Source of the DNA: Halalkalicoccus paucihalophilus | GTDB lineage: Archaea; Halobacteriota; Halobacteria; Halobacteriales; Halalkalicoccaceae | Assembly (NCBI RefSeq): GCF_001593955.1 | Contig: NZ_LTAZ01000012.1 | Coordinates: 124,001 to 188,000 of the forward strand | DNA length: 64,000 bases | Direction of reading: 5' to 3' | Program-made: the position numbers and the translations under genes | Shown: positions 13,236 to 46,655 of the stretch, piece by piece | Position numbering within the stretch: the stretch's first letter is position 1 | Layout: every line of letters starts with the position of its first letter | Notes under the pieces: model-generated | The model's database searches: none | Told to the model about the DNA's origin: nothing | Seen by the model: only the letters and a program-made list of their open reading frames with translations

Positions 13236-13427
13236 GATTGAGACTACAGAGCGGATCGAACACATATATGAAACCCCAGTGTTTTGTCTGAGTCCATGCT
13301 AGACTAATCCTGTTTGAACGGCAAGCTGTTGTTTCTATAAACATTTGGACTTTATTCGAATGAGATTGATAGCCAAGAATTGATAATGGCCCAAACTCTC
13401 TTCACGGTTCAATTGAATATTTCAGTT

Positions 13428-13550
13428 GGACGCTGCCTGCGTCCCAGGAGGGGGAGGGTGCCTCTGACACATCACCACTTCCCCCTCCTTGCAAGGCATG
13501 AAACCTTGCAGTCACAACTAGGTCAGAACAATTTGTAGGCTTTCCCTTTT
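13428..13550 (+). ncRNA. putative structured RNA element, copy A
   Basis: Three hairpins follow each other. P1 is GGACGC/GCGTCC (13428-13444). P2 is GGAGGGGGAG/CTTCCCCCTCC (13447-13488) and encloses the conserved loop core GTGCCTCTGACAC. P3 is GCAAGG/CCTTGC (13491-13509). The 3' end reads TTTGTAGGCTTTCCC and runs into TTTTT, like a terminator. Copy B at 15120-15246 has the same order of helices and the same tail. P1 differs by a compensatory change (A-T pair to G-C pair). No protein is encoded. Whether it is transcribed is unknown. Confidence 0.45.
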
Positions 13551-13747
13551 TACATGGAGCGCGTATTTCGAGCACTCGGCCGGAATTTGGTATCTGGGGG
13601 ACTATGCACCTACTGTCCGTACATAGACTATAGTATGGCCGTTTTGCCGAGAATCCGAATTCAAAATTCCACAGAAAAATTCTGCACCCAGCTTTTGCCG
13701 CTGTCGAGAAATAAAAAAGAGGTTGGCGACGATTCGTTGATTACTCT

Positions 13748-14725
13748 CTATTCGTCCGGACAGTCGTTCTCAGGCTCCGGCTCAGGTTCTTTCTCAGGAC
13801 AGTCATCCTCCGGCTCGGGTTCTGGTTCCTCTTCCGGGCAGTCGTCATCCACCGACTCGTCTTCTTCGTCATTCGATTGCTCATCCGAATTATCACTTGT
13901 TCCATCATCGGACTCATCAGAGTCATCCGAATCGTTGTCCTCGCTTTCATCCGCATCCGGTGGATACACCGTTAGTGATACGGTTTCGTCTTCACCATCA
14001 ATCTCGACTTCTTCCTCGTCGGATTCCCACGTTTCGTCCGGGACATCATACGTTGCTGAGGCCGTATACGTCCCATTTTCGAGTTCGAAGGTCGCAAGAG
14101 TTTTGCTGTTATCGTCCTTGCCCTGGGGTGATGTTGTCTTCGTTTCACCATCAACTGTTACATCAGCACTGATGATTCCATTGTCTTCGGATTCGATGAC
14201 AGAAGCAGTCAGTGTATACGTCTCTTTCTCCTCATTGTCATCTCCGCCTTCATTATCATCATCGTCCGAGTCCCCGCTCTCATCTGAACGGGCAACTTCT
14301 TCGTCCTCCGGCGAGAGCAGTGCCACCACGTCCGGGTTCTCATTATTCAGCACCTCACCCTCATATGGGTCCTCCAGAGAGACATCACCGCTCTCACCAC
14401 CACCCGCTGCAACTGTCACAGACTCTCCAGCTCCAATAACAACCTCGCCGGACAGCGTTCGAATCTGATTGACCTCGCTATCCGTACCCGCTTCGAAGTT
14501 GATTTGATAACCAGTTAGGTCGACCTCACTCTCCCCATTGTTCGTAATCGTGACTGTCTCTGCCTCAGCATCCACCTCAAGAGACAGGTCCATCTCAGAT
14601 TGAGCTAACCCAATTCCCGACGATGAAATCCCCACAGCAGCTGCTGAGACCGCAAGCCCCGTTTTCAGTACCGTTCGTCGGGTTGGTTTCCTCTCCTCTG
14701 ACTTGTTCCTATTGCGTTGTGTCAT
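13748..14725 (-). CDS. Tat-exported lamin-tail-like acidic surface protein
   Basis: I place the start at ATG 14725 (325 residues); an upstream ATG at 14758 adds 11 residues. The N-terminus carries a twin-arginine signal, PTRRTVLKTGLAVSAAAVG. Residues from about 45 to 140 resemble a lamin-tail beta-sandwich (EVDLTGYQINFEAGTDSEVN, GEVVIGAGESVTVAAGG). A second beta domain with TYTLTASVIES and NGTYTASATYDV follows. A very acidic stalk then ends in three short repeats of the form DDCPEEEPEPEPE, each with one cysteine. It is probably a cell-surface protein. It lies between the two RNA-like elements. Confidence 0.8.
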   Translation of the reverse strand: MTQRNRNKSEERKPTRRTVLKTGLAVSAAAVGISSSGIGLAQSEMDLSLEVDAEAETVTITNNGESEVDLTGYQINFEAGTDSEVNQIRTLSGEVVIGAGESVTVAAGGGESGDVSLEDPYEGEVLNNENPDVVALLSPEDEEVARSDESGDSDDDDNEGGDDNEEKETYTLTASVIESEDNGIISADVTVDGETKTTSPQGKDDNSKTLATFELENGTYTASATYDVPDETWESDEEEVEIDGEDETVSLTVYPPDADESEDNDSDDSDESDDGTSDNSDEQSNDEEDESVDDDCPEEEPEPEPEDDCPEKEPEPEPENDCPDE

Positions 14726-15119
14726 ATGACGTGACTGTTCCCACTCACTAACCACCATTAAAGATAGTGTTATCGGAACTTACCGCAAAAAATTAAACTT
14801 TCTGCTTCATTTTGTTCGGAATTATAAAATAATTTTTCATCAGCTATTCATCATCGCTATTTCTCAGAAACTCCTTAGTGGTACTGTCCCATTGTTTGCC
14901 TTCTCTGGCCTCTCACTGGCACGTCAATGGATACTCGTCCATCTCATGTCCTTTTCTATCATGGCGAACTAATTCTTCTTGTAGGGCCAACTGTTGGCTC
15001 TATGAGGAGGAATATAATTGCCTCCCAGTATCTAAACCCAATGGCTACATCGAACTCGGTAAAAAAGGGGTTGTATTATCAACCCTTCTTCTTTCACACA
15101 TCAATTGATTACTGCCACT
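14726..15119. other. AT-rich intergenic stretch without a recognised gene
   Basis: The part next to 14726 is the promoter region of the lamin-tail-like gene. From about 14870 to 15060 short frames exist on both strands, but none has haloarchaeal composition or a recognisable motif. At 15066-15090 a hairpin AAGGGGTTG/CAACCCTT followed by CTTCTTT could terminate plus-strand transcription just before RNA-like copy B. Confidence 0.4.
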
Positions 15120-15246
15120 GGGCGTTGATAGCGCCCAAAGGGGAGGTGCCTCTGACACACCACAGCCTTCCCTTCCGCTCATGGTCATGCAAGGTTCAGG
15201 GGTTACCTTGCGGTCCTAGCTAGGGAGAAAAGGTTTGTAGTCTTTT
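15120..15246 (+). ncRNA. putative structured RNA element, copy B
   Basis: It has the same architecture as copy A. P1 is GGGCGT/GCGCCC (15120-15136). P2 is AAGGGGAGG/CCTTCCCTT around the identical core GTGCCTCTGACAC (15146-15158). P3 is GCAAGG/CCTTGC (15189-15211), and the 3' tail is TTTGTAGTCTTTTC. Stem sequences differ from copy A while pairing is kept, and loops differ in length. That pattern favours a conserved RNA or DNA structure over a simple duplication. Confidence 0.45.
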
Positions 15247-15395
15247 CTATCGATAGACCCAGGACCATCGATAAAGAAATAATGATCTCTCAAGACCGCA
15301 AACCAATTCCTATCCTTAAGTAGGCTCTATACGGCTTGCTGTGTGGTCCTTTCACTCCATGATTGGGTTTTGTCTCAGAGAACTGCCGCAGCTCC

Positions 15396-25777: not shown

Positions 25778-26131
25778 TTAGCTGATCAATGCCTGAATGT
25801 CCGCAGCGCGCTCCTCATCTGTGACGAGTTTCGAAAACTGCCAGTCTAAGTCGCCCAGGAGAAGTTCATAGCCCTCCTCGGTCAATTCGTATTGGTTCGT
25901 GCGCTTATCGAGCTCACTTTTTTCGAGCAATCCGTCCGTGATGAGGTCGTCGAGATTCGGGTACAATCGCCCGTGATTGATCTCGCTGTTGTAATACTCT
26001 TCGAGTTCGCGTTTGATCGCGAGCCCATACATCGGTTCCTCGCTGAGGATCGTGAGGATGTTCTGCTGGAAGGCGGTCAACTCGTGTGCGGTACGCTGGT
26101 TAATCGCCGGGGCTGCTTGTGCCTCTGACAT
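25778..26131 (-). CDS. PadR-family transcriptional regulator
   Basis: The 117-residue protein has the PadR winged helix: LTAFQQNILTILSEEPMYGL followed by AIKRELEEYY, then GRLYPNLDDLITDGLLEKSE and the wing NQYELTEEGYELL. A short C-terminal helix completes dimerisation. PadR proteins repress stress, transport or division genes; haloarchaea have many of this short type. It stands alone, so its target is unknown. Length and motifs are normal. Confidence 0.85.
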   Translation of the reverse strand: MSEAQAAPAINQRTAHELTAFQQNILTILSEEPMYGLAIKRELEEYYNSEINHGRLYPNLDDLITDGLLEKSELDKRTNQYELTEEGYELLLGDLDWQFSKLVTDEERAADIQALIS

Positions 26132-45953: not shown

Positions 45954-46267
45954 CCGACCAAGTCAAGAGAGAGGAGTCCTTGTACACAGCCGCAGATGGG
46001 ACAATCAGTACTCTGGTGAGACACTCAGAACGTGATAGGAATGAGGTGCTGCATACAAAGAATGGATGCAGCAGACGGACTTCGTTAGTTCCACTTGAAC
46101 TGTGCTGAATCAACCGAGTAATAGACCTACATACGTACCGCTACGAACTCTATTGAATGGTGATACTGGCGAGTCAATCCCCTCGATGCTGACACGCTCT
46201 TCACTATCTGATCTGCGAAAATAGCAGATTTCGGCTGCATAAATGAGGTTTAAGTAATGGTATGTCG

Positions 46268-46375
46268 TAGTCAGTACTGCTTCGCTATCTCTCTGCAGGA
46301 GTAAGAGGGGTAGCGAGGGTGTCAGAGGCACCTTATTCTTCCTTTCCCAGCTTCCCCTGCAGAGAGATTGCGGTA
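46268..46375 (-). ncRNA. hairpin with the GTGCCTCTGACAC core, copy C
   Basis: On the minus strand a perfect stem ATCTCTCTGCAGG/CCTGCAGAGAGAT encloses about 70 nt, including the core GGTGCCTCTGACACC (46318-46332), itself able to form a 4-bp stem with loop CCTCTGA. The core is identical to that of copies A and B, but P1, P3 and the TTTGTAG tail are absent. It lies immediately after the end of a minus-strand gene fragment, so it may be a terminator-type structure. Confidence 0.35.
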
Positions 46376-46386
46376 ATACTTCAACG

Positions 46387-46655
46387 TCAAGCACAATCAG
46401 TGTTATGAATGACCACGTTTTCCTGCGAATTCCGCGCTACCGGTAGATAAAACCGTAACTCGTCGGGTTCTATTGAGCGTTCGTTGAGGGCGGTTTCTTC
46501 GAGTTTTGCTCTCGGCTGACTCTCCTCGAAATAGTTTCGCTGTAGAGACCGATTACTCACCTTCACAGATCCCGTCTCAGTTTGGTCTGGAGGTGCGACG
46601 CAGCAGTCTTCGTCTAAGCCCCCGAATGCCCAGAAATTCCTGAATACGCTCTATT
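46387..46655 (-). pseudogene. 3' gene fragment, unrecognised
   Basis: After stops near 46655 the frame reads FRNFWAFGGLDEDCCVAPPD, then an 80-codon acidic stretch ending RFYLPVARNSQENVVIHNTD and C-A-stop. No start codon is in place. It looks like a real protein C-terminus whose 5' end has been lost. Confidence 0.35.

Follow-up and report, generated by a model that had tools for sequence, protein, structure and literature searches.

Among described archaeal small RNAs (sRNAs), the closest counterparts of the elements reported here are sRNA162 of Methanosarcina mazei and related methanogen sRNAs, trans-acting RNAs that occlude the start of a transcription-factor mRNA (PMC3510493; PMC6560208). 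The methanogen sRNAs that mask start regions act on mRNAs with leaders, and the mRNA targets of sRNA162 have a ribosome binding site (PMC3510493; PMC6560208), whereas the target proposed below is predicted to be leaderless. In haloarchaea a leader is absent from most mRNAs, 72% of the transcripts of Haloferax volcanii being leaderless (PMC6560208). The present RNAs also differ from sRNA162 in carrying a seed of 12 invariant nucleotides on unrelated scaffolds across a whole order. A second likeness is to sRNA132 of H. volcanii, also encoded by a separate gene in a haloarchaeal intergenic region; it has been reported in Haloferax only, whereas the present family is order-wide, and its predicted interactions fall in ORFs or 3'-UTRs, whereas the present family matches a 5' end (PMC6560208). 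In the titles and abstracts searched, we found no post-transcriptional control of a haloarchaeal PadR gene by an sRNA, and a literature search with the sequence itself returned unrelated papers only.

Predicted sRNA genes in the window and their dispersed relatives

The window, a 64,000-nt stretch of the Halalkalicoccus paucihalophilus genome, contains three predicted sRNA genes, designated copies A, B and C (Table 1). A sequence-only reading had described A and B as homologous RNA-like elements, and both are present: they align over 104 nt at 70% identity (blastn E 2.5e-6), which identifies them as true homologues, and copy A is also homologous to locus L037 in a genus mate. The identical core noted in that reading matches exactly as the 13-mer GTGCCTCTGACAC (13458–13470 in A, 15146–15158 in B). 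Stem P1 likewise changes with pairing preserved, from GGACGC/GCGTCC in A (13428–13433/13439–13444) to GGGCGT/GCGCCC in B (15120–15125/15131–15136), with a closing U–G wobble in B. The differing arms of P2 (AGGAGGGGGAGG/CTTCCCCCTCCT in A, AAGGGGAG/CTTCCCTT in B, each with one G–U on the plus strand) still pair; P2 is absent from the minimum-energy fold of copy B alone, so that in B this stem rests on the comparison. The proposed common order of P1, P2, P3 and tail is borne out in its parts, including P3 GCAAGG/CCTTGC and the tail TTTGTAG-CTTT in both copies, but P3 is not collinear, being preceded in B by 13 inserted nucleotides that include a second motif, CGCTCATGGTCA. The gene between the two copies encodes a TAT-signal, lamin-tail-domain protein (Pfam LTD). 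A and B are putative sRNA genes on the basis of homology and fold. The window has one further match of the core 12-mer, on the plus strand at 26119, where it complements a PadR gene start.

Table 1. Positions of the predicted sRNAs and of the proposed target in the window
Feature	Position	Strand	Details and basis
Copy A, predicted sRNA	13427..13552	+	Sequence, fold and homology to B; predicted transcript ends
Copy A parts	P1 13428-13444; seed hairpin P2 13446-13489; P3 13490-13510	+	Tail TTTGTAGGCTTTCCCTTTTT
Copy A seed GTGCCTCTGACA	13458..13469	+	In P2 loop; 13-mer enrichment; exact complement of PadR nt 2-13
Copy B, predicted sRNA	15118..15252	+	Sequence and homology to A; P2 comparative
Copy B parts	P1 15120-15136; seed hairpin P2 15138-15174; P3 15189-15211	+	Tail TTTGTAGTCTTTTC
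Copy B seed GTGCCTCTGACA	15146..15157	+	Basis as in copy A
Copy B second conserved motif CGCTCATGGTCA	15176..15187	+	In several other copies, forms the loop of a hairpin with variable stem
PadR-family regulator gene, 117 aa, proposed target	25778..26131	-	Pfam PadR E 8.3e-17; begins ATGTCAGAGGCAC
Proposed target site TGTCAGAGGCAC	26119..26130	-	PadR ORF nt 2-13; exact seed complement; codons frozen across the order
Copy C, third predicted sRNA	46240..46400	-	Long outer stem with CTCTCTGCAGG/CCTGCAGAGAG; predicted transcript ends
Copy C seed GTGCCTCTGACA	46320..46331	-	

Within the source genome (3.98 Mb), the 13-mer occurs 14 times exactly, against 0 for a reversed control, and 49 times against 7 when up to one mismatch is allowed. 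The exact 12-mer occurs 40 times; four of these are PadR gene starts, which leaves ~36 dispersed copies of GTGCCTCTGACA elsewhere. Nine relatives (six genus mates and three further family members) hold 77 exact 12-mers against 3 for the control, and 41 genomes of other haloarchaeal families ~75 against 9, with enrichment at 1–7 copies in most of these families. Viral contigs yielded 104 matches to a 14-mer, judged not to exceed the random-14-mer expectation for a collection of that size. The Rfam 15 covariance models gave no match above gathering score over the window and tRNAs only on six loci with the order-wide subfamily described below. We conclude with high confidence that A and B are members of an RNA family, small, structured and uncatalogued until now, that occurs across salt-loving archaea.

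In each of two paralogous clusters of the source genome, L062 (G000:C13:108000-127900) and L064 (G000:C16:55000-74934), several seed copies alternate with genes for HTH_10 (Bat-like) and DUF7344 regulators; convergent pairs ~240 bp apart account for some of the copies. Two seed copies lie ~111 bp from contig ends (L060 and L064, at the ends of G000:C12 and G000:C16), and their identical left flanks point to a repeated element as the probable cause of the assembly breaks.

Hairpin structure, strand and second loop motif

The 12-mer lies in a hairpin loop whose stem differs from copy to copy: stem sequence, stem length and loop size all vary, and the distance between seed and stem ranges over 0–23 nt on each side. 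In a partner-swap control, in which flanks were scored against exchanged partners, the flanks of 97 non-PadR copies reached a pairing score of 15.03, compared with 12.64 (sd 0.22) for swapped partners; 19 PadR copies showed no enclosing-stem excess in the same test.

An orthologous two-hairpin subfamily extends across the order, with the layout TGCCGG-(N)-seed-N1-3-CCGGCA followed by a second hairpin with loop TGCCCGG, and is preceded by a TATA box and TGA-N-GTAAAG; the 12-mer mostly lies 75–100 bp downstream of that box. Scanning 84,980 species genomes returned 58 matches, 57 of them haloarchaeal or archaeal and the last, in a bacterial bin, apparently due to chance; the genera represented include Haloferax, Halobellus, Halogeometricum, Haloquadratum, Natrialba and Halorubellus. 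The helix of the second hairpin averages 9.14 bp against 5.00 (sd 0.27) for swapped partners over 44 distinct sequences, a statistic used because RNAalifold aligned this hairpin poorly, its loop offsets differing. Wobbles in the subfamily read as plus-strand G–U in 48 cases versus 14 as minus-strand G–U, which places the RNA on the strand reading GUGCCUCUGACA. Both the structured RNA and its strand are well supported, and covariation, strand-specific wobbles and the TATA box mark the subfamily as a structured non-coding RNA gene with its own promoter. Its locus is near a PRC-barrel gene in the source genus, Natronococcus, Natrialba and Halostella (for example L261, L259, L279 and L069), and beside a gene that looks winged-helix-like by inspection in several genera.

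Homologues in many haloarchaeal families, covarying stems, plus-strand G–U wobbles and the TATA boxes of the subfamily agree with the functional-RNA interpretation offered by the sequence-only reading. A covariance model of the subfamily made strong matches only in the source genome among 32 genomes, so that scaffolds elsewhere differ and the seed alone is shared; scaffolds in different families have just the 12-mer in common. Coding interpretations as VPLT or MPLT, and of ATGG in the second motif, were discarded, the frames differing between copies.

Several source-family copies, B included, contain the second motif, CGCTCATGGTCA, which frequently forms the loop of a further hairpin with a variable stem. 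The motif is complementary to TGACCATGAGCG, found at the TATA-proximal starts of genes in that family. At 12 nt with one mismatch it showed no enrichment over the control; longer exact forms were enriched, with 14 matches against 1 control for TGCGCTCATGGTCA in 59 genomes, restricted to the source family except for one match. This longer form is complementary to gene starts TGACCATGAGCGCA, ~25–35 nt after TATA-like sequences, which include those of DoxX-like membrane proteins (DoxX by inspection). These observations are only suggestive of a second seed directed against other gene starts. HTH_10 gene starts, considered as a target of this motif, gave no match. At L124, L469, L475 and L481, gene starts with [T/C]GACCATGAGCGCAG, DoxX-like ones included, follow soon after a TATA-like box and are complementary to this second motif.

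The PadR gene start as proposed target

Prefixing an A to the complement of the 12-mer gives ATGTCAGAGGCAC, the start of a PadR-family gene (Pfam PF03551; domain score 61.4 bits in the window, against a cutoff of 27). The invariant core is exactly antisense to nt 2–13 of the PadR mRNA, a relationship that the sequence-only reading had missed even with one such gene in the same window. Occurrences of GTGCCTCTGACAT at gene starts, as at window position 26119, had been taken for chance MSEA codons, an account that gave way to the target interpretation.

The PadR gene occurs across the order and starts with ATGTCAGAGGCAC in nine haloarchaeal families (f1, f4, f5, f6, f7, f8, f9, f13 and f17); 44 matching starts comprise 41 with this sequence and three with ATGTCTGAGGCAC. 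Over the rest of the same genes, TCA makes up 3.3% of Ser codons and GCA 20% of Ala codons, and other genes that start with MSEAQ use ATGTCC with variable third bases. Where codon 5 changes from Gln to Arg, as in some families, base 13 is still C. A TATA centre lies 26–27 nt upstream of the ATG in 32 of the 44 genes, a spacing from which the PadR mRNA is predicted to be leaderless. When start codons in the window were ranked by duplex strength, leaving out ORFs antisense to or overlapping longer genes, PadR was the strongest partner of both A and B. Given a seed displayed in loops and an exact 12-nt match to a distant mRNA, PadR is probably the target of these RNAs, with strong support from sequence. 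Two loci from different families (L043 in G015 and L180 in G186) carry a short gene for an 88-aa, seemingly HalOD1-domain-like protein that also begins [A/G]TGTCAGAGGCAC and is a possible second target.

Seed and target are co-conserved, as seen in the synonymous freezing of PadR and in their co-occurrence. Outside family f1, an extra seed copy is present in 22 of 26 genomes with the exact PadR start and in 2 of 15 other genomes (22/4 versus 2/13; Fisher p 1e-5, ignoring phylogenetic relatedness and with a few probable chance seeds, L041 and L042, among the counts). Both states occur inside each of families f4, f6 and f13, and four genomes (G014, G031, G038 and G041) have the exact start without an exact extra seed. 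Among 23 genomes chosen mainly for seed absence, 21 have a PadR orthologue, with diverged starts such as ATGTCAGAGTCAC, ATGGCAGAAGCAC, ATGTCAGAGGCCC and ATGTCAGGGGCAG; the RNAs are nearly always missing where the PadR start has drifted. A search for trans-compensation in genomes with an altered PadR start found no clear case of an RNA with a matching changed seed, so the pattern is one of co-loss rather than compensation; for one match, in G034, the flanks were read. Several diverged starts retain ATGTCA and lose GAGGCAC, and another constraint on the first six bases is therefore possible. A palindrome, TGACAT-N10/11-ATGTCA, overlaps the start codon in 16 of the 44 PadR genes (e.g. L171, L174 and L159) and is a possible autoregulatory operator; ATGTCA by itself may be constrained for such other reasons. 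Bases 7–13 of the PadR start follow the RNA, and the first six may answer to the palindrome.

Proposed mechanism and competing explanations

We propose that copies A, B and C each encode a trans-acting antisense sRNA of ~110–150 nt in which a hairpin loop would expose the 12-nt seed GUGCCUCUGACA unpaired. By pairing with nt 2–13 of the leaderless PadR mRNA (5'-A-UGUCAGAGGCAC), this seed would mask codons 2–4 along with most of the start codon and thereby block leaderless initiation or trigger decay, so that PadR synthesis is repressed. Because the target would be under both coding and base-pairing constraint, scaffolds could turn over around a fixed seed; in the source genus the family is amplified, the second loop of some copies being antisense to other gene starts. 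Pairing with the leaderless PadR 5' end, repression and amplification in the source genus together form an account that we consider likely. Since the loop 12-mer exactly complements the mRNA start, the RNAs probably switch the PadR messenger off, and a block of translation is the outcome towards which we lean slightly. The sequences establish the complementarity, the exposure of the seed in loops, the strand, the order-wide distribution, the conservation of the target and its leaderless promoter geometry; from them we infer that A, B and C are transcribed, that pairing takes place in cells and that regulation is repressive. A wider and rather doubtful extension is a modular antisense system in which hairpin loops are exchangeable cassettes, each complementing a leaderless mRNA 5' end, with scaffolds formed anew, time and again, around a seed that stays the same; its cassettes might be the PadR seed across the order and TGCGCTCATGGTCA, in the source family, against the TGACCATGAGCGCA genes. 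In the same extension, the order-wide RNA has a second loop, UGCCCGG, similar to the 5' arm of its seed hairpin, UGCCGG, and this loop could capture the 3' arm of that hairpin when the target opens it.

An invariant loop in variable stems would also be expected of a riboswitch-like or protein-binding hairpin, whose core would be the site of an RNA-binding protein and would be shared with the PadR start for another reason. We consider this improbable: loop size and position vary widely (over 0–23 nt), unlike a protein-bound fold, the PadR copies lack an enclosing stem, and the antisense identity with PadR spans exactly the 12 invariant bases. Were the 12-mer instead a DNA operator for a transcription factor, perhaps PadR itself acting on the PadR gene and on various dispersed promoters, the palindrome at 16 of 44 PadR promoters would explain the constraint on ATGTCA. 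The constraint reaches GAGGCAC, however, beyond the palindrome, and in the order-wide subfamily the 12-mer is inside the transcript, past the TATA box and between stems with plus-strand wobbles, which makes an operator very unlikely.

Several f1 copies lie 27–57 nt upstream of same-strand DUF7344 genes (MSSNI...FGGTTAH; L059:12067, L064:10596, L074:8940, L129:6807 and L142:5335 are possible leaders), and others adjoin HTH_10 genes, as expected if the elements were cis-acting leaders or attenuators of these neighbouring regulator genes. Yet the majority of copies have no co-oriented gene downstream, A and B are opposite in strand to the lamin-tail gene, and in the source genus the order-wide subfamily is divergent from its neighbour, with its own promoter; a general cis role is accordingly not expected to be the explanation, and we give it little credence. 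The sequence-only reading had also allowed for a transposon end acting as a hairpin, and transposon or MITE ends, or dispersed repeats, would suit the multicopy, dispersed distribution, the clustered and convergent pairs ~240 bp apart and the paralogous clusters on C13 and C16. Such an origin has a negligible probability, given that stem sequence is specific to each locus, neighbouring genes are unrelated, the orthologous subfamily is syntenic across genera and scaffolds of different families share only the 12-mer; no repeated end sequence linked to a single type of element was found. Trans-acting antisense RNAs thus remain the preferred interpretation.

The family bears on how sRNAs could act on leaderless haloarchaeal mRNAs, offering a conserved case of an sRNA seed that fits the 5'-terminal 13 nt of a leaderless mRNA, with a named target. 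The frozen rare codons of PadR provide an independent footprint of the seed match, and the RNA is present in genetically tractable Haloferax species. The family further combines turnover of scaffolds around a constant seed with strong amplification in one genus.
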